64,000 nucleotides of DNA, taken from an uncultured Clostridia bacterium (GTDB lineage: Bacteria; Bacillota; Clostridia; Oscillospirales; Acutalibacteraceae). The stretch lies in assembly GCA_946555465.1 (NCBI GenBank), contig CAMNST010000005.1, positions 1 to 64,000 on the forward strand, written 5' to 3'. The notes under the pieces were generated by a model. The model searched no databases and was not told the origin of the DNA. It saw only the letters and a program-made list of their open reading frames with translations. Position numbers and translations under genes: made by a program. Of this stretch, positions 14,902-23,636 are shown piece after piece (position 1 is the stretch's first letter; each line of letters opens with the position of its first letter).

Positions 14902-16623
14902 TTACCAACTTCCTCCGCCGCCACCGCCGGAGCCGCCTCCTGAGAAACCTCCTCCGCCGCCGGAAAATCCGCTTCCCCCGGATGAAGAGGTTTGCGGTGC
15001 GCTTGTCATGGATGATACAGCACTGTTCATGCTGTGGTTAATAAAATGAATCATAGCATAGTGTGAATAAGCCGGGCTGTCATACCATTCTGGCGGACGC
15101 ATCGTTATGCTTTCAAATTTCTTTGTCCATTTATCTGAAACACCAAGGGCATATGCATATGGAAGTATATCATAGAAATATTGAGGGTTATCCTCAACAA
15201 GGGTTTCAAGTTTTTCTTTTTCGGCAGTTTCAAGAAACAGTTTGAAACCTTCTATTTTCTGAAGCATTAAATGACCGTTTTCTGTTCTTCGGCGTATGAA
15301 AAATGAAAAAACAAATGCTGCTGCTGAAATTAAAATTCCGGCAGCGAGACAGAGAAATTTTAATTTTCCGCCGATAAAAGTAGTGAAAATCAGGATGGAT
15401 AAAACGAGCGACAAAATGCTTGAAATCCATCCGACGAGGCGCATTTTTAATGATTTCATATCAAATATCAGTGCCAGTCTGTCTTTCGTCATAAGTTCGC
15501 TGACTATACTGTCGGCGTGAACATAGAATTTTTCGTTTAAATCACTTAAACGCACTTTGTCATATTTTTTGAAAAGTCCGTTGTAAAATATTCGTTTGCA
15601 GAAATCCGTGCCGTCATAATGTTTTACTTTTTCAATAACAATTTCACCCAAATATTTGGGACGTTCATTTTTACCGAGTTCGTGAATTTTAATATAACCT
15701 TCATTTGCCAGTTCAATAAGAAGTGATACGGTATCTTTTGATGTGACCATTCCGTTATGCCAGAGTTTAACCTCAAGGCTGTTCATATTTTCAGGCGGGT
15801 AAAATTCAACAATCTCAACAATTTTTTTGTCTCTTCCGTATTTTAACCAAAGAATAAATACTATAAGAAGGACAATAAGGGGTATTGCAACCATTGACAC
15901 GAGGGAAAGATAATAAACCGTGTAATCAAAAGTGAAATAACCTTCTTCAAGTTCAAGACGAACGGTCAGTGCTTCATTATTTTTAAGACCGTTTTCAAGC
16001 CGTCCGCTTATTGTGTTTTCATTTACCGTGTAATGTATCTGATTTGTTCCGGCAGTACCGTATTTTCCCGATGAAAAACCGAGTTTCTGACTGTCAAATT
16101 CTTTTGGCATAGTGATTTTGAATGTAACATTCTGGATGTTGGTATCCCAGCCGTCACCGATAATATTGTAATAGAGTTCGTCATAACCGTTTGCGGCATC
16201 CTGCCCCATTACGTATGTGTAAGATATGGTGTATGACTGTTCACCTTCAAGTGTTACATCTTCATCGCCTATTTTTATTACGTAGTCAGAGTTTTCAATA
16301 GAAACGCTGTTTTTGTTATTTACACTAAGGTTTCTGATTTTTGCACGAACGGTTGACGATGTTCCGTCGGCTCTCTTAACGTTGTTCTTTATCGGAATAT
16401 AACGGATGATTCCGTGTTTTGGTTTTGTGAAATTTGCTGTTATATTTTCAGTTACCAACAGAGAATTGTTTTCCTGAACATCAATATTAACATCATAGTC
16501 TTTAATATAATAGCCGTTTCTGCTGAATGCTGTGCTGTCTTCAAGTGCCATTGCAGAAAATGCCGATATGAAAGATAAAACTGCTATCAGGGCGGCTGTA
16601 ATGATTGAAATGATTTTCTTCAT
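14902..16623 (-). CDS. DUF2207 membrane protein
   Basis: A 573-residue protein with an N-terminal signal peptide (ending near SAMA), an extracytoplasmic DUF2207 domain with FTKPKHGIIRYIPI, a transmembrane pair near residue 240, a cytoplasmic part and another pair near 410-440. It ends in an almost pure Gly/Ser tail (GGGGSW end). Function of the family is unknown, but it is commonly next to LemA. Its start overlaps the LemA stop by one base, so the two are coupled. It is the last gene of the nine-gene minus-strand operon. Confidence 0.85.
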   Translation of the reverse strand: MKKIISIITAALIAVLSFISAFSAMALEDSTAFSRNGYYIKDYDVNIDVQENNSLLVTENITANFTKPKHGIIRYIPIKNNVKRADGTSSTVRAKIRNLSVNNKNSVSIENSDYVIKIGDEDVTLEGEQSYTISYTYVMGQDAANGYDELYYNIIGDGWDTNIQNVTFKITMPKEFDSQKLGFSSGKYGTAGTNQIHYTVNENTISGRLENGLKNNEALTVRLELEEGYFTFDYTVYYLSLVSMVAIPLIVLLIVFILWLKYGRDKKIVEIVEFYPPENMNSLEVKLWHNGMVTSKDTVSLLIELANEGYIKIHELGKNERPKYLGEIVIEKVKHYDGTDFCKRIFYNGLFKKYDKVRLSDLNEKFYVHADSIVSELMTKDRLALIFDMKSLKMRLVGWISSILSLVLSILIFTTFIGGKLKFLCLAAGILISAAAFVFSFFIRRRTENGHLMLQKIEGFKLFLETAEKEKLETLVEDNPQYFYDILPYAYALGVSDKWTKKFESITMRPPEWYDSPAYSHYAMIHFINHSMNSAVSSMTSAPQTSSSGGSGFSGGGGGFSGGGSGGGGGGSW

Positions 16624-17180
16624 CAGAATTCCACCTTCACAGCCTGCTTTTCATTATTATCTTCAATAAGAAACATCTGCTTTTTATCAAAGTTGAACAT
16701 TGAAGCAATGATGGATGAAGGAAACATCTGAATTTTGTTATTATAATTTTTTACAACTGCATTATAATATTTTCTTGCATTTGCAATATCTTCCTCAGTT
16801 CTTTTGAGTTGGCTGTTAAGATCAAGGAAGTTCTGGTTTGCCTTCAGATCGGGATACTGTTCGGCAACGGCATAAATGCTTGCAAGACCCTTGCTGATTT
16901 CCTGATTGGCGGCAATTTTGTCATTATCTGTCATTCCTGCATAATTTGCATTTCTTGCTGCGATAACTTTTTCAAGCGTTTGTGCCTCGTGTTTTGCATA
17001 TCCTTTTATGCTTGAAACAATGTTAGGTATTAAATCCCAGCGTTTTTTCAAATAAACATCCATTGTGGCAAATGCCTCTTCAACACTGTTTCTGAGTTTT
17101 ATCAGAGAATTGTATGTTGAAGCCGCATATAAAACAATCAAAACAACAATTACAGCGATAACAATTAAAGCAATTTTCAT
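16623..17180 (-). CDS. lemA: LemA family protein
   Basis: A 185-residue LemA protein: one N-terminal transmembrane helix followed by a long helical domain with SVEEAFATMDVYLKKRWDLIPN, the family signature. The tail ends in QAVKVEF. The biochemical role is not established; it is envelope-linked and pairs with DUF2207 proteins. Its start overlaps the HydE stop by four bases. Confidence 0.9.
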   Translation of the reverse strand: MKIALIVIAVIVVLIVLYAASTYNSLIKLRNSVEEAFATMDVYLKKRWDLIPNIVSSIKGYAKHEAQTLEKVIAARNANYAGMTDNDKIAANQEISKGLASIYAVAEQYPDLKANQNFLDLNSQLKRTEEDIANARKYYNAVVKNYNNKIQMFPSSIIASMFNFDKKQMFLIEDNNEKQAVKVEF

Positions 17181-18241
17181 AATGATGAGTCCTCCTCAAT
17201 ATAATCTCCTCTGTCTGATGACAGAGTGTAACCTATTTTATTAAATCTTTTTTCAAGCAGAACAAGGTTTTCTGCCGCCTCTTCACCGGTGCATATTTTA
17301 TTGTCATAAAGTGAATATTTCTTTCTGACCGAAACGGGTGAAAGATTCGGCATAACAACGTTTGCACCGGCAAGAATTCCGAGTTCTCTTCCGTTTTTGC
17401 ATATTGTTCCAAGTGCTGTTGTTGCAGGCAGAAGCACATTTTTCAGCATCAGTCTTATTATGCTCAGAATCAGAAGTGTAAGTTTTAAATTCCCCTGCGA
17501 AAAACCTGCAAAGGGAGTGTCTTTATGCGGTATAAACGGACCGATACCAACCATCTGCGGATTTAATTCTTTTATGAACAATAAATCTTCTGCAATGTTT
17601 TCGTTGTTCTGATAAGGTGAACCCACCATAAAACCTGCACCGGTCTGATATCCGAGTTCTTTCAGTTTAAACAGACACTTCTTTCTGTCTGACAGTTTCA
17701 TTTCTGCCGGGTGAAGTTTTGAATAGTGGGCATCATTTGCTGTTTCGTGCCGCAGAAGATAGCGGTCGGCTCCCGCATTTTTCAGTTTTTTATAACTTTC
17801 ATAATTTCTTTCACCGAGCGAAAGTGTAACTGCGCAGCCGGGATAAAGGTTTTTAATCTCTTTTATTATATCACACAGAAAATCATCTGTGAAATGACCG
17901 TCTTCACCGCCCTGTAAAACAAAGGTTCTGAAACCGAGAGAATAGCCTTCACGGCAACAGAATAAAATATCTTCTTTACTGAGACGGTATCTGCTGAGTG
18001 TGCTGTTGCTTTTTCTTATTCCGCAGTAATAACAATCGTTTTTGCAGATGTTGGAAATTTCTATAAGCCCTCTTGTATATATTTTGTCTGAAAAATATTT
18101 TTTACTCATTTTAACTGCTTTTTCCCCGATGTAACTTAAAGTTTCATCGTCGTAATTTTCTAAAATGTAAATATATTCTTCTTTTTGCAGTTCATTTTCT
18201 TTTTCAAGAGTATCAATAAGGTCTTTTGTTTTTTTATCCAT
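17177..18241 (-). CDS. hydE: Radical SAM protein HydE-like
   Basis: A 354-residue radical SAM enzyme. The cluster motif is CKNDCYYCGIR (C-x3-C-x2-C), followed by LQGGEDGHFTDD and YLLRHETAND, the pattern known for HydE, which helps build the dithiolate-bearing diiron site of FeFe-hydrogenase. No HydF, HydG or hydrogenase is in this window. Its operon partners are instead 2-hydroxyacyl-CoA dehydratase-like and CooC-like proteins, so it may serve another cofactor. Related families (PylB, BioB) fit less well because of the GGED and HET motifs. Confidence 0.75.
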   Translation of the reverse strand: MDKKTKDLIDTLEKENELQKEEYIYILENYDDETLSYIGEKAVKMSKKYFSDKIYTRGLIEISNICKNDCYYCGIRKSNSTLSRYRLSKEDILFCCREGYSLGFRTFVLQGGEDGHFTDDFLCDIIKEIKNLYPGCAVTLSLGERNYESYKKLKNAGADRYLLRHETANDAHYSKLHPAEMKLSDRKKCLFKLKELGYQTGAGFMVGSPYQNNENIAEDLLFIKELNPQMVGIGPFIPHKDTPFAGFSQGNLKLTLLILSIIRLMLKNVLLPATTALGTICKNGRELGILAGANVVMPNLSPVSVRKKYSLYDNKICTGEEAAENLVLLEKRFNKIGYTLSSDRGDYIEEDSSL

Positions 18242-18243
18242 TA

Positions 18244-18942
18244 TTATTTTTTCGCCTTTTTCATATGAAGTTCTTTCATTCCATCAACTTCATCACATAT
18301 TTCTTTAAGATTGCAACTTGAGCAATCAAATATAACATTGTCAAGAATATGATTCAGGGCAGATGTCGTTTCTTTAATTTTTTCTGCAAGAGAGTTAAAT
18401 TTATCAAATTTGTCAAAATCAGTTAAAAAATAGATTTCAACACTTTTAACGATAGGGTTTTTTCTGTATTCATCTATCAAAGCGCTGCCGTAATCAGCAA
18501 AGGAGATTTTTTCTTTAACTGCTTTTTTACCCACCCTGATTTGTTCGCGCATTGAAAGTGCAGAAACTCTTGGCATAAAGTTCTGAGCAATAAAACTATA
18601 TCGCACAAATTCAAGTTCCTTAATTTTTTCAAATGCTTTATCTTCATCGCTGATATCTTCAATTTGAATAAAAACGATTTTCCCGAATGGTGTGTCGCTG
18701 CGAAGTTGGTGAATATCCTTTCCCGAAAGATAAACGCAGTTTGAAAACGTTATATCACTGCTTACAGCGAGTGTGCTTACACAGGGGAGTTGATTTCCGC
18801 CGAGTTCATAAGCGGTGTCTTTGGCGAAAATAATATCATTTTTGCTGCCTTTGGTTATGGCAGTTTTTTTATATTCAAATTTTTTTATATCTGCCGGTAA
18901 AAGTTCCTTAATCTGCTTAATAAGAGAATTATAAATTACCAT
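18244..18942 (-). CDS. CODH/acetyl-CoA synthase beta-like protein
   Basis: A 232-residue protein without signal or membrane segments. The C-terminus has CSSCNLKEICDEVDGMKELH (Cys207, Cys210, Cys216) and the middle has RVSALSMREQIRVGKKA with VEIYFLTD. These resemble parts of the acetyl-CoA synthase/CO dehydrogenase beta subunit as I remember it, but the full enzyme is three times longer. It could bind a metal or iron-sulfur cluster. Its ATG overlaps the stop of the 55-residue gene, and hydE follows after two bases. The family call is tentative; the metal-binding cysteines are seen directly. Confidence 0.45.
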   Translation of the reverse strand: MVIYNSLIKQIKELLPADIKKFEYKKTAITKGSKNDIIFAKDTAYELGGNQLPCVSTLAVSSDITFSNCVYLSGKDIHQLRSDTPFGKIVFIQIEDISDEDKAFEKIKELEFVRYSFIAQNFMPRVSALSMREQIRVGKKAVKEKISFADYGSALIDEYRKNPIVKSVEIYFLTDFDKFDKFNSLAEKIKETTSALNHILDNVIFDCSSCNLKEICDEVDGMKELHMKKAKK

Positions 18943-19109
18943 TATAACTTTCGGTCCTTTTTAAGATTGTCATAATAAGGCTGAAGTTTATCATAAATAA
19001 ATCTTATCAATTTCATATCAAGGTTTGCAAAATAGATTGTAAATGTTGTTGCAAAGAAAATAAGCAGAGCAATAAAGATTTTTATAACAGCCAATACAAA
19101 TTTATTCAT
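18942..19109 (-). CDS. 55-residue single-pass membrane protein
   Basis: The frame starts with ATG at 19109-19107, overlapping the stop of the activator gene by one base, and stops at 18944-18942, overlapping the next ATG by one base. One hydrophobic helix spans about residues 4-29 and is followed by a basic/aromatic tail (KLQPYYDNLKKDRKL). Stop-start overlaps on both sides argue that it is a real coupled gene. I know no family for it. Confidence 0.65.
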   Translation of the reverse strand: MNKFVLAVIKIFIALLIFFATTFTIYFANLDMKLIRFIYDKLQPYYDNLKKDRKL

Positions 19110-19900
19110 TATGCCATTCCTTTCTGCCTTGCATATTCTGCTGCACCCAGTGCACCCATCAACTGCGGATCAATGCTGAGGTCAACAACTTTGATTTTAA
19201 GTACTTTTTCAATAGCCTTTTTAAGTCCGTCATTTTTTGCACAGCCGCCTGTAAGCGTGATGCTGTCGGTTGCACCTGCTTTTTTAGCCATAACAAAACA
19301 TCTTTTTGCAACAGCAAGTTGAATGCCTGCGGCAATTTCGTCCATCGGTTTGCCTTCGCCTACAAGGGAAATGACTTCACTTTCGGCAAAAACAGTACAC
19401 TGAGCAGTAATGGGAATTGTGTTTTTTGCTTTGAGCGAAAGTTTGCAGAATTCAGGAAGCGTCATTTCAAAAGCGTTCGCCATAGCCTCAAAAAATCTGC
19501 CTGTGCCGGCAGCACATTTGTCATTCATTGCAAAGTTTTTAACTGTTCCGTCTGTATCTATTGCAATTCCCTTAACGTCCTGACCTCCAATATCAATAAT
19601 TGCTTTTACGTTTGGGTTGGTTACATGAACACCCATTGCGTGGCAACTGATTTCGGAAATGTTTTCGTCCGCAAAAGGCACTTTGTTTCTGCCGTATCCC
19701 GTACCGATAAGGTATGACAAATCCTGAGCAGATTTAATACTTTCAATTTTGTTTATAGCCTCGTCAAGTGCAAGTTGTGCACTGGCAACAGGGTTGATTT
19801 TACTTCTTACGGTTGAGTCAGAAACAATTTTTCCGTTCTCATCAAGAATAACACATTTTGCGTAGGTTGAACCTACGTCGCATCCGCCAAAATATTTCAT
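19109..19900 (-). CDS. hgdC: 2-hydroxyacyl-CoA dehydratase activator (BadF/HgdC family ATPase)
   Basis: A 263-residue ASKHA-fold ATPase that in known systems uses ATP to drive one low-potential electron into a dehydratase or reductase. The ATP loop is GCDVGSTYAKCVI, and the subunit-bridging 4Fe-4S cysteines are Cys129 (NDKCAAGTGRFFE) and Cys168 (AQCTVFAESEV), as in HgdC. It lies 46 bases after the two dehydratase-like subunits. Length and motifs are complete, so it should be functional. Confidence 0.88.
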   Translation of the reverse strand: MKYFGGCDVGSTYAKCVILDENGKIVSDSTVRSKINPVASAQLALDEAINKIESIKSAQDLSYLIGTGYGRNKVPFADENISEISCHAMGVHVTNPNVKAIIDIGGQDVKGIAIDTDGTVKNFAMNDKCAAGTGRFFEAMANAFEMTLPEFCKLSLKAKNTIPITAQCTVFAESEVISLVGEGKPMDEIAAGIQLAVAKRCFVMAKKAGATDSITLTGGCAKNDGLKKAIEKVLKIKVVDLSIDPQLMGALGAAEYARQKGMA

Positions 19901-19946
19901 ATATATTAACCTTTCTGTTGTTACATTATTTCATATTTGTTCGGCA

Positions 19947-21521
19947 TTACCAAGCCATAGTATCATCAAAATCAACAAGTGTCGGGTCTACAGGTTCTTC
20001 CTGAAGAACGGTTGTCATATATTTGTTGATATGTTCGCGCATATCGCGGCGCGAAATTGTTCGCGGGTCCATAAGGTCCTGAGGAACCCATATAAAACTA
20101 ACACCGCGTTCTCTTGCCTGATCATCGAATATACCTACAAGACCGTCCATACCTTTACAGGAAATCTGGTCATACATAATAACCATATCGGCACTGTATT
20201 CATCAACTATACGCCAAAGTTCGTCAACAACATTGGCATAACCGCCTTTGGTGTGTTTTCTCATAGTTGTGCGCTGAAGCGTTTTTGCGTATGTTGCAAG
20301 GGCTTTTTCCTTATCCGATGTATCGTACTGAATATAAGAAATCATCGTTTCCATATCCATTACAACGTTTACGCCCCAGCAGTTTTCAAGCCAGTTGGCA
20401 AGACTTGTGTAATAGTTTGCCGGGCAGGACCATACAATGGCTCTGTGGCGCATTTCTTTTGAACACTTTGTATGCTTTTTGTAAGCATCAAGCATAATTT
20501 TATTAACTTTTTTGTCTATTTTAAGAAAACGCTCATCCATACCGCCTGAAATATGAAAATAGAAAAGTCTGTACAGCCAGAAAGTTGCACCTGTCATCTG
20601 CGGATAATCAGTTTTATTGATTTCCCATTTCTGAACTTCATATTCAAGTTGTTCGTTGTAATTATTCATTGCATTAAAGAATGCATTCCAGTCGAATTTT
20701 TCTCCTGTCTGCTCTTCAATGAAGCGAATCATATCTTTAACTTCATCAACTGCATATTCCTGAACATCCTCACCGTTATATCTGAGCGGAACATTAAGAA
20801 CGTGTGTGGGAATATTGAATCTTCTGTCTATATATGCAGAATTCATAACAGAACCGTCACAAGGCATATTGCAGGTAATTGCACATTTGCCAACCATAGG
20901 GTAGTCGTTGTTGATTGCCACACCGGCTTCTGCACTGGGCAGCGGGCATACATCGGCAGGCACACCGTAACTCTCGGTTATATCAAGATAAGGAGGTGTA
21001 ATCTGCTGGTCTACCATTGATGTTAAGAAAATAGGAATTGTAGATACATGGTTATCTTTAAGATTCGGAAAGCCTGCCATAATTTCTGAAGAAAAAATTT
21101 CATCTACATTTACGGTTTTGTCGCTCCATTTTGGATTTTTATGGAAATGTTTATCATTAGCAAGTAAAAAGTTAATGATATCGGTTGTTGGCTTTACAAG
21201 ACCATTCATATGTAAATGTGTAATTCTCAGTTGAGGACCTCTGAGACCTTCCGTATGCCTGTCAACCCATGCCGGAGCAGAAAGATAACTTGCCATCCAG
21301 CGGTAGTTCATAAGGCCCTTAACAGTTGAAACAGGTGCTTTTCCTGCCATAACGATAATGTCTTTCCATGTTATTAACCATCTGTAGTAGTCATAGGCAG
21401 TGTCACTTATTCCGCGCCATTCCCTGTGTTTGAGAATACCGGTTTTGTCTTGATGAAGATTCCCCAGATTTTTTGGCTGATTGCGCCAGAGATTTTTCAG
21501 GCTGTCTTTTAAATTTCTCAT
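19947..21521 (-). CDS. 2-hydroxyacyl-CoA dehydratase-family subunit (large)
   Basis: A 524-residue protein of the HgdA/HgdB-BcrB/C-DCCP superfamily. Candidate cluster cysteines are Cys192 (DVCPLPSAEAG), Cys213/217/221 (GKCAITCNMPCDG), and later ones in VWSCPANYY and QISCKGMDG. It is longer than typical subunits (about 400-480), with an N-terminal extension of roughly 90 residues. Its start overlaps the smaller subunit's stop by one base, indicating a heterodimer. The substrate is unknown: 2-hydroxyacyl-CoA, benzoyl-CoA-like, or a small molecule as in double-cubane proteins. Confidence 0.75.
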   Translation of the reverse strand: MRNLKDSLKNLWRNQPKNLGNLHQDKTGILKHREWRGISDTAYDYYRWLITWKDIIVMAGKAPVSTVKGLMNYRWMASYLSAPAWVDRHTEGLRGPQLRITHLHMNGLVKPTTDIINFLLANDKHFHKNPKWSDKTVNVDEIFSSEIMAGFPNLKDNHVSTIPIFLTSMVDQQITPPYLDITESYGVPADVCPLPSAEAGVAINNDYPMVGKCAITCNMPCDGSVMNSAYIDRRFNIPTHVLNVPLRYNGEDVQEYAVDEVKDMIRFIEEQTGEKFDWNAFFNAMNNYNEQLEYEVQKWEINKTDYPQMTGATFWLYRLFYFHISGGMDERFLKIDKKVNKIMLDAYKKHTKCSKEMRHRAIVWSCPANYYTSLANWLENCWGVNVVMDMETMISYIQYDTSDKEKALATYAKTLQRTTMRKHTKGGYANVVDELWRIVDEYSADMVIMYDQISCKGMDGLVGIFDDQARERGVSFIWVPQDLMDPRTISRRDMREHINKYMTTVLQEEPVDPTLVDFDDTMAW

Positions 21522-22717
21522 TATTCACACTCCTTCTGCTTCTGAATTTTCTTGATTTCCAGACTTTCAACAAAAGCCTGAATTCTTGTTCTTAACTGAC
21601 CGGAGGCATTGGCGGTATACTGTCTGTCTACCGTAACCGACGGAATGCCGTAATCATTTGTAATGATATGAGATGCCAGAGCCCTTTCATATCCCCAGAA
21701 TTCGCAGAACTTCAACTGTTCGTAAACCACGCCGTCTGCATGATATTCTTCAACAAGTTGTTTAACATATTCTTTTCTGCCTGCAACTTTGTCTTGACTC
21801 ATATAACGCGGGCATTGGCTGGTTTTCATATAATGAAGAATGATTTCTTCAAGAACATCTCCGCTTTCGGTGAGTTTGATCTCCTCTCTTCCGGGAAGAG
21901 AACCGAAACAAAAACGGTCTGCAACGACAAGTGCACCTGATTCTTCAAATAATTTTGTGAAATCAGGGTCGTCCATTTCAGAACCGACAACAACAACTTT
22001 TGCCCTGAAATTCTTTTTTTCATCGGGTACTCTTGTTTTAAGTTCTTCTGCCGTTTCTCTGAGTTTGTCAAGAATGAGATATTTGGGGCAGCAGTATGTA
22101 ACAAGGTTAAGAACATGAAATTCATATCCCGTAATTCTTGGGTTTTCCTCTTTTCTGTATTCGCCGATTTCTGTAATCAGTCTGCAGATTTCATTGTGTT
22201 CTTCAACTGCTTTTCGCATGGATTTTTCAGAGATATCCGAACCGTAAACTTCGTGAAGACGGTCAAGGACCTTGGTTTGCATTTGATTTTTGTAATGCTT
22301 AATGGTATGCGGAGCAATTTTAAACGGAACATCCGGAATCGAAACAAAAAAATCTTTGTTGTTTACAAGATTAAGCAGTTCAAAATGTTCATAAGCCCTG
22401 TTCATTTCAGAACAGGTTTCGGAACCTATTAATGCCGAAAGAAACTGATAGCCGCCTTCTATTCCGCGTTCTACCAGTGCTTTTGAAAAACCGCAGAGAT
22501 AGGAACTCATATAATACGTTGCAATATCCATAGAGCCTGTTCTCGGTGCCCTTAAACGAACAGAAAAGCAGTCGTCAAGATTAAGCAGAACTTCGGGAAT
22601 ATGGTAACAGGTATAGGCAACTGCCTTTTTCCCTTCGGAGATTGCCTGCTGAACCAATTCGTTGTTTGCCTCCTGAAGAAGATTTTCAAAATATATCAGG
22701 TGTTTTAAATCTTTCAT
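21521..22717 (-). CDS. 2-hydroxyacyl-CoA dehydratase-family subunit (small)
   Basis: A 398-residue subunit of the same superfamily. YTCYHIPEVLL (Cys37) matches the conserved first-domain motif, Cys75 (SSYLCGFSK) and Cys102 (GSETCSEMNRAYE) and Cys338 (LKFCEFWGYERA) are at the positions where family members bind an iron-sulfur cluster, and VGSEMDDPDF matches the domain-joining loop. It begins immediately after the cooC-like stop. Together with the 524-residue subunit it should form a complex energised by the HgdC-type activator. Confidence 0.78.
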   Translation of the reverse strand: MKDLKHLIYFENLLQEANNELVQQAISEGKKAVAYTCYHIPEVLLNLDDCFSVRLRAPRTGSMDIATYYMSSYLCGFSKALVERGIEGGYQFLSALIGSETCSEMNRAYEHFELLNLVNNKDFFVSIPDVPFKIAPHTIKHYKNQMQTKVLDRLHEVYGSDISEKSMRKAVEEHNEICRLITEIGEYRKEENPRITGYEFHVLNLVTYCCPKYLILDKLRETAEELKTRVPDEKKNFRAKVVVVGSEMDDPDFTKLFEESGALVVADRFCFGSLPGREEIKLTESGDVLEEIILHYMKTSQCPRYMSQDKVAGRKEYVKQLVEEYHADGVVYEQLKFCEFWGYERALASHIITNDYGIPSVTVDRQYTANASGQLRTRIQAFVESLEIKKIQKQKECE

Positions 22718-23482
22718 TTAAAGTACCTCCATTCGGGTAAGGGCTTCTTTTACGCCTTTAACAACATTTGAATCTTCAGGAAGGTTGAAAATATTTTTTC
22801 CCTGAATATCAAACATAGAAAGGTTTTTGTCATCAGCAATGTAACTGAGAACTTCAATTCCGTTTGTGTCTATATATTCTTTAAGAGATTCATCCGCCAT
22901 ACGGTTTATTACGGCACCGATTTTGTCATACATAACAAGTTCGTCGGCAACATTTTTTATTGTGTTTATTACCTGGCAGCCTTTTTTGCTCGGGTCGGTA
23001 ATAAGCAGCAGGTGTGTAACTTTTTCCATAACTCGTCTGTTAATCTGCTCAATGCCGGCTTCACCGTCGATAACAACATAGTCGAACTCCTGTGAGAGAA
23101 TAGAGATAACCTCTTTCAGATAAGAGTTGATTTTGCAGTAACAGCCTGCAGTTTCAGGTCTGCCGACAGCAATAAAAGCGTATCCGTCTGTTTCAACAAG
23201 TGCGTCAAAAATGCGGTATTTTGCTTCGCCTAAAAGTTCAATGGCACTTCTTGTGTCGCCTTCGTCAACAGATGATATAATTTCTTTTCTGATATCATCG
23301 ATTGTCATTTTAACATCAATGCCGAGAGCAGTTGAAAGACCTACAGCAGGGTCGGCATCAATAGCAAGAATTTTTTTATCGGGATATTTTTCAACCAGGC
23401 ATCTGACTATTGTAGCACAAAGCGAAGTTTTTCCGACTCCGCCCTTTCCTGCAACGGCAAGAATTGTTGATTTGTTATTCAT
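22718..23482 (-). CDS. CooC/MinD-type ATPase
   Basis: A 254-residue deviant-Walker ATPase with GKGGVGKTS at 12-20, IDADPAVGLS and the GCYC pair (Cys114, Cys116) in the sequence AGCYCKIN, the dimer-interface metal site of CooC, which inserts nickel into CO dehydrogenase. The ATG at 23482 follows GAGGTGATTAAA and gives the canonical start; a longer frame to 23539 lacks one. First gene of the operon. Its presence implies that a partner downstream needs metal insertion or cluster assembly. Confidence 0.82.
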   Translation of the reverse strand: MNNKSTILAVAGKGGVGKTSLCATIVRCLVEKYPDKKILAIDADPAVGLSTALGIDVKMTIDDIRKEIISSVDEGDTRSAIELLGEAKYRIFDALVETDGYAFIAVGRPETAGCYCKINSYLKEVISILSQEFDYVVIDGEAGIEQINRRVMEKVTHLLLITDPSKKGCQVINTIKNVADELVMYDKIGAVINRMADESLKEYIDTNGIEVLSYIADDKNLSMFDIQGKNIFNLPEDSNVVKGVKEALTRMEVL

Positions 23483-23510
23483 TTTAATCACCTCAATTAT
23501 TATCCATATT

Positions 23511-23539
23511 ATTATACATACTTTATTTAGATAAAGCAA
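23511..23539 (-). promoter_or_regulatory. Promoter of the cooC-hgd-hydE operon
   Basis: On the minus strand TTGCTT (23539-23534), 17 bases, TATAAT (23516-23511), about 30 bases before the cooC-like start. I see no other good promoter within the operon. Confidence 0.65.
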
Positions 23540-23598
23540 TATTATAAAGAAGATTTGTTAAATAAATAACAATCATTTTGAGAAAAATGCAGAAAAGA

Positions 23599-23636
23599 AA
23601 AACAAACGCTCAGAAAATGAGCGTCTGTTTTTTTAG
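23599..23636 (-). terminator. Terminator after hpf
   Basis: AACAAACGCTCA pairs with TGAGCGTCTGTT; read on the minus strand it ends in a T-rich run. It separates hpf from the cooC operon promoter. Confidence 0.75.

Follow-up and report, generated by a model that had tools for sequence, protein, structure and literature searches.

Why would a bacterium keep, in one tightly packed run of genes, a CooC-type ATPase, two subunits of the 2-hydroxyacyl-CoA dehydratase type with their activator, a protein resembling acetyl-CoA synthase (ACS) and the hydrogenase maturase HydE? The question is raised by a locus in an uncultured Clostridia bacterium of the Acutalibacteraceae (assembly GCA_946555465.1, contig CAMNST010000005.1), of which we analyzed positions 1-64,000, hereafter the window. 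Nine open reading frames (ORFs), all on the minus strand in the region 14902-23539, lie at the positions first given for them in a first-pass annotation, which had read them as one dedicated metallocluster enzyme with its own maturation proteins. Our results indicate that six of the nine, in the order cooC, hgd1, hgd2, activase, a gene for a 55-aa peptide and an ACS-like gene, are one portable gene set of anaerobic Clostridia (the cassette), whereas the genes for HydE, LemA and DUF2207 look like its chance neighbours. We suggest, with a probability of about 0.58, that the cassette encodes a low-potential reductase of the benzoyl-CoA reductase/double-cubane family, driven by ATP and tethered to the membrane, together with a nickel-handling module. 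The reductase family is known and the combination of genes appears to be new; no paper describing this gene set was found among the titles and abstract starts listed by searches of an openly licensed library.

The unity of the six genes is best illustrated by related loci. Alignment of the 398-aa protein against genome contigs gave at least 466 stretches encoding a relative, the best 80 of which were kept for locus counts; gene order was mapped in them with profiles built from the window genes, and per-gene counts take only loci long enough to show the gene. The complete set is found in the same order in 41 out of 80 loci, and most of the remaining loci are cut by contig ends. Among testable loci, cooC is present in 69 out of 76, hgd2 in 75 out of 76, the activase gene in 45 out of 46, the peptide gene in 42 out of 44 and the ACS-like gene in 36 out of 40. 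(The counts miss cooC and hgd2 at L090, where ORFs are over-extended; the profile map shows both.) The ACS-like gene is absent at four loci, of which L031, L035 and L044 carry it elsewhere in the genome, the fourth being L055. In addition, the 232-aa ACS-like protein occurs in 3 out of 197 genomes of the order, from two families, always with the same partners, and the 55-aa peptide, hidden there by an ORF size cut, accompanies it in all three. In a class sample of 391 genomes, apparently a single sample, the short ACS is found in seven genomes and HGD1 in six, with six in common (p = 1.5e-12, uncorrected for descent), and in the seventh short-ACS genome the gene is on a contig of 4.3 kb, which breaks off within hgd2. 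Sometimes cooC and the ACS-like gene occur apart, as a pair, and across 40 loci (L038, L082 and the duplicates L011 and L012 being left out) cooC is the gene whose pair distances track those of the ACS-like gene most closely (correlation 0.74).

The two dehydratase-type subunits point to the kind of chemistry involved. Both HGD1 (398 aa; 21521..22717, minus strand, as are all features below) and HGD2 (524 aa; 19947..21521) carry the HGD-D domain (PF06050, 314.9 and 158.2 bits, respectively, cut-off 28.4). HGD1 can be aligned over its length to BzdN and to the double-cubane protein DCCP. Its cysteines C37, C75, C102, C270, C302 and C338 do not vary among 32 sequences; they are aligned to those of DCCP too and are in register with BzdN C36, C73, C100, C263, C293 and C327, which the sections cited here list as ligands of the [8Fe-9S] cluster (PMC11971306). 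In HGD2, C192, C221 and C455 are invariant in 45 sequences; C192 falls on the BzdO ligand C95, and C192 and C221 fall on cysteines of DCCP. HGD2 has about 100 residues more than BzdO ahead of the first ligand, a region that gave no match. From these alignments, HGD1 would hold an [8Fe-9S] double cubane of the BzdN/DCCP type and HGD2 a [4Fe-4S] cluster of the BzdO type. Four further cysteines, C366 and C381 of HGD2 and C178 and C210 of HGD1, are 97-100% conserved, lie outside the listed BzdN and BzdO ligands and could form an extra metal site. The partner of the two subunits is an ATP-hydrolysing activase of the HgdC type (19109..19900; TIGR00241, 214.7 bits, cut-off 125.4), whose best PDB matches are MbdQ (9gai) and HgdC (1hux), and next to it at a conserved position is the 55-aa peptide (18942..19109), with one likely membrane span as judged from its sequence. 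From what is known of the biochemistry of the family, in part from the cited sections of one source, a reductase driven by ATP to very low potential is the natural reading (PMC11971306).

Neither subunit reaches an NCBIfam equivalog cut-off: HGD1 scores 149.4 bits against 350 for double_cubane NF040772, 103.3 against 453.8 for BzdN and 90.8 against 700 for HadC, and HGD2 scores 51.2 against 350, 22.5 against 448.6 for BzdO and 29.9 against 750 for HadB. With scores so far below known equivalogs and a conserved neighbourhood, the idea of a dedicated metallocluster enzyme (two dehydratase-family subunits, an activator, maturation-type proteins and a membrane peptide) is supported, and the HadB and HadC scores speak against the standard 2-hydroxyacyl-CoA dehydratase that had been considered instead.

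The cassette can be set beside several characterized systems. DCCP/DCCP-R of Carboxydothermus hydrogenoformans shares the HGD-D fold, the six [8Fe-9S] cysteines of HGD1 and the ATP-driven activase. To our knowledge, DCCP has no CooC, ACS or membrane partner. It also differs from the HGD1/HGD2 pair in being a homodimer, according to the sections cited (PMC11971306). The class I systems BzdNOPQ and MbdNOPQ likewise combine a double-cubane subunit, a [4Fe-4S] subunit and an activase, but the cassette has one activase gene rather than two, scores below the Bzd equivalog cut-offs and adds the longer N-terminal region of HGD2, CooC, the ACS domain and the membrane peptide; no benzoate genes were noticed in the listed flanks, at which no such search was aimed. 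HadBC/HadI and HgdAB/HgdC agree with the cassette in family and type of activase, whereas HGD1 keeps the six double-cubane cysteines and the subunits stay below the equivalog cut-offs; no CoA-transferase was noticed in the listed flanks, again with no search aimed at it.

The nickel-handling part of our proposal comes from the remaining two genes and their neighbours. The CooC-type ATPase (254 aa; 22718..23482) has CooC itself as best PDB match (3kje, E = 3.5e-14), with the CYC of its CXC motif (GCYC) in register and a Walker A motif KGGVGKT; among 75 sequences, C114 is conserved in 99% and C116 in 100%. The 232-aa protein (18244..18942) matches the CdhC model PF03598 with 27.3 bits (cut-off 24), and computed structure comparison gives it the fold of the ACS middle domain, here standing alone. 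Its tail carries C-x2-C-x5-C-x9-H in 43 out of 46 sequences, and the chain stops shortly behind this motif; of the three misses, L032 and L038 are masked and L082 is truncated where its contig stops. In full ACS proteins the pattern is C-x2-C-x8-C-x9-C, with CGC in addition in the six listed with it, and from its cysteines the short tail resembles a reduced version of the A-cluster cubane site. The likeness to ACS that had been seen in the cysteines is present and extends to the fold, with the set of A-cluster ligands incomplete. As in CODH/ACS with AcsF/CooC, an ACS middle-domain fold lies near a CooC-type ATPase; in contrast to that system, the cassette lacks carbon monoxide dehydrogenase (CODH), the A3 domain and the CGC nickel motif. 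Furthermore, small CooT genes appeared when neighbouring ORFs were listed down to 60 residues, and at 13 loci CooT and a His-rich protein adjoin the cassette or lie within it. We call the latter CooJ-like, as a provisional label. CooC, CooT and the His-rich protein occur together at L125, L043, L146 and L147, as in cooCTJ of Rhodospirillum rubrum, but with no CODH gene in the cassette. At two loci CooT is fused to the metal-sensitive repressor domain PF02583 (L051 1280-1771, L065 3238-3780), and the fusion is perhaps a self-sensing nickel chaperone, to judge by its domains.

We propose that these parts work as follows. The activase would hydrolyse ATP and drive electrons into the [8Fe-9S] double cubane of HGD1, from which they would pass to the active site of HGD2, a substrate-facing [4Fe-4S] cluster with one open iron. 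The 55-aa peptide presumably anchors the pair at the membrane. CooC, joined in some relatives by CooT and the CooJ-like His-rich protein, would load nickel, most likely onto the ACS-like protein, which may thus serve as a metal site and perhaps also as a CoA-binding surface. The enzyme would probably reduce a recalcitrant compound, possibly CoA-linked or in the membrane phase, as an electron sink.

Several points weigh against this proposal. In the alignment with BzdO, HGD2 C221 falls on C129, one residue off the ligand C128, and C455 is paired with C380 in a segment that scores only 2 bits. Two parts of the A-cluster, the CGC motif and the fourth cysteine, are absent from the short ACS, so that a nickel site there is hypothetical and the protein may be a plain electron carrier. 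The tail of its model is of low confidence (block means 49-66), and its CxxC comes into register with ACS only at a loose setting, the default alignment stopping before the cysteine tail. Chaperones are missing where we began: the window has no match to CooT or His-rich nickel chaperones, which could therefore not be noticed in the first-pass annotation, and neither its cassette nor the most similar loci (L014-L046 except L043) have an adjoining CooT or His-rich gene. Among the genomes of L014-L046, few of which were searched whole, the pair was seen only for L043 and L035, the genome of the latter (G209) carrying it at another place, L125. CooT is moreover already known without CODH, with 111 homologues and CODH in 85 CooT-bearing proteomes by the figures cited from one study (PMC6006190). 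Across the 40 loci, cooC pair distances correlate more with the HGD genes and the activase (0.80). Finally, no conserved neighbour names the substrate. Ene reductases of the OYE type lie in 15 out of 89 loci, BaiCD- or bilirubin-reductase-like and below the cut-offs of those families in the seven scanned; they might be a sign that unsaturated organic acceptors are reduced.

It would be tempting to go one step further and suppose that the CooC/CooT/CooJ-like set supplies nickel to the trimmed, free-standing ACS domain, or to a site shared with HGD2, and that the ATP-driven double-cubane reductase brings this nickel to a low-valent state in which it carries out reductive chemistry at the membrane. 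We hold this more specific version only tentatively, at less than even odds. If true, it would be a new nickel enzyme system outside known classes, and bacteria would have a parallel to the activation of nickel by ATP-driven electrons in methanogens. There, as the part of the literature cited here describes it, such electrons pass through nitrogenase-like Fe-S clusters and reduce the nickel centre of MCR (PMC12176620). The proteins of the MCR activation complex are different, and the analogy concerns the nickel reading alone.

The alternative that survives best is the same reductase without nickel, in which CooC is a P-loop ATPase repurposed for inserting or opening Fe-S clusters, while the ACS-like protein acts as a [4Fe-4S] electron carrier or a CoA-docking subunit. 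Three cysteines and a histidine are fitting ligands for a cubane that transfers electrons, the short protein has none of the nickel ligands known from ACS, and cassettes of the window type do without local CooT and His-rich genes. The CooT and His-rich genes at 13 loci and the CXC motif kept in CooC argue the other way, and we consider this alternative rather unlikely, though to be taken seriously.

Much less probable is a lipid-modifying system, a cousin of the anaerobic plasmalogen synthase (PlsA/PlsR) reducing esters at the membrane. The membrane peptide does accompany most HGD pairs, second pairs included (not those of L133, L044 and L045). PF09989 (DUF2229), which we take to be a PlsA-type marker, is found in 13 out of 37 cassette genomes against 305 out of 391 genomes of the class, and has no match in the window cassette proteins or in the window genome (G000), as if the cassette replaced it. 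However, within the window's family the contrast is not convincing (2 out of 8 genomes with the cassette, 104 out of 192 without), and because it fades there the replacement reading stays weak. Moreover, cassette and PF09989 are both present in all five f52 and f79 cassette genomes of the class sample, and CooC, CooT and the ACS domain would be left without a role.

CO or acetyl-CoA metabolism, with the cassette as a degenerate offshoot of the Wood-Ljungdahl pathway, is slightly more improbable still. CooC, CooT and the ACS domain are indeed parts of CODH/ACS, but the CODH catalytic subunit has no match in 33 out of 37 cassette genomes, the other four having matches above the cut-off (G216, G221), two pieces below it (G217) or a 19.7-bit fragment (G230). 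Full ACS is found in 2 of the 37, and in the class sample it shares only one genome, G411, with the cassette. CODH and full ACS being generally absent from cassette genomes, we rejected membership in the CODH/ACS pathway.

We can dismiss as least probable of all a nine-part system for which HydE builds an organometallic cofactor: HydE lies 2 bp past the ACS-like gene in the window and 129 bp past it in L051 (558.7 bits, above the HydE cut-off), but L051 is the only one of 36 testable loci with HydE within 1.5 kb after that gene. The family assignments of the first-pass annotation (CooC-like ATPase, two HGD-D proteins, activase, HydE, LemA, DUF2207, CdhC) all hold by profile score, and HydE (17177..18241) is well above its equivalog cut-off (TIGR03956, 573 bits against 254.6). 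HydF (557.2 bits, cut-off 325.6) and HydG (957.2 bits, cut-off 312.2) are encoded on another contig of the window genome, C3 (L013 8379-10981), where they are adjacent without HydE, which is found instead in the window operon. A genome of the same genus, G145, has the cassette with no adjoining HydE and no match to HydG. HydE is therefore read as an ordinary [FeFe]-hydrogenase maturase and was rejected as a cassette member, contrary to what had been proposed. LemA (16623..17180; PF04011) and the membrane protein DUF2207 (14902..16623; PF09972/PF20990) had been taken, with the 55-aa peptide, as a tie to the envelope; a single-sequence search found no match to either in the 83 loci L011-L093, and they were rejected as such a link.

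Although rare per species, being found in 8 out of 200 genomes of the window's family, the cassette spans several families of Clostridia with varying flanks, which suggests horizontal spread, a view drawn from distribution and flanks rather than from a tree. One cultured host is Blautia parvula NBRC 113351 (L048), which has CODH and ACS as well. Second hgd1-hgd2-peptide units without adjoining CooC, activase or ACS-like genes occur at L051, L064, L065, L082 and L084 (partly visible), and further second units without a module of their own at L119, L134 and, lacking the peptide, L133; one module might serve different catalytic pairs. At four loci the second operon is followed by HtpG (HSP90) just upstream of the main cassette (L051 2148-7247, L064 4239-9198, L065 4180-9193, L082 1227-6208), HtpG occurring in 6 out of 89 loci. 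Another lone hgd1-hgd2 pair, with no adjoining CooC, activase or ACS-like gene, is divergent from a C_GCAxxG_C_C redox protein (L044 9427-9828, tested with PF09719; L045 5129-5539). Genomes G649 and G761 have four HGD1 copies each, the maximum in the family sample. The listed flanks are mostly unrelated genes. A large FAD/Fe-S oxidoreductase lies beside the cassette at two of the 89 loci (L120 10233-13521, followed by the only HypA among them, and L147 3173-6064); its likeness to the putative isoprene reductase IsrA is drawn from domains and from the context described in the cited portion of one paper (PMC10134865).

Within the window, junctions are close to seamless. There are 0 bp between cooC and hgd1, 1-bp overlaps at hgd1/hgd2, activase/peptide and peptide/232-aa gene, a 2-bp gap before HydE, a 4-bp overlap at HydE/LemA and a 1-bp overlap at LemA/DUF2207. 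The tight packing that had been described therefore stands, apart from the 46 bp that separate hgd2 from the activase gene, and it is beyond chance for the first six genes because these are conserved across loci, which the last three are not. For CooC, a start at ATG 23482, with GAGGTG just 5' of it, is the likelier one and gives 254 aa. The candidate sigma-70 promoter at 23511..23539 (TTGCTT-17-TATAAT), called good earlier on, has a perfect -10, but its -35 matches at 3 out of 6 positions, and it is missing from our promoter scan because that requires at least 4 out of 6; the scan found 30 promoter-like sites in the region against a shuffle mean of 30.0, no excess. The promoter lies just behind a terminator-like hairpin (23598..23632; 15 pairs, then a T-rich tail) that separates cooC from the upstream hpf gene.

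If our proposal is true, Clostridia, many of them sampled from gut and rumen, would have a further low-potential reductase that is as yet uncharacterised, and probably also a new system that depends on nickel, because the nickel-insertion set of CODH occurs here without a CODH to serve. A 2026 study of CODH genomic contexts mentions neither 'dehydratase' nor 'double-cubane' in the portion cited here (PMC13056359). Since the Pfam CdhC model picks up the short protein even where the genome has no full ACS, annotations of CooC and CdhC are not safe evidence of the Wood-Ljungdahl pathway. In a rumen study, the cited part of which reports reads for a CODH maturation factor and a CODH iron-sulfur subunit and none for EC 2.3.1.69 (PMC4619255), the cassette is one possible source of the maturation factor reads. 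Moreover, the cassette makes reductive activation of nickel by double cubanes a testable idea.

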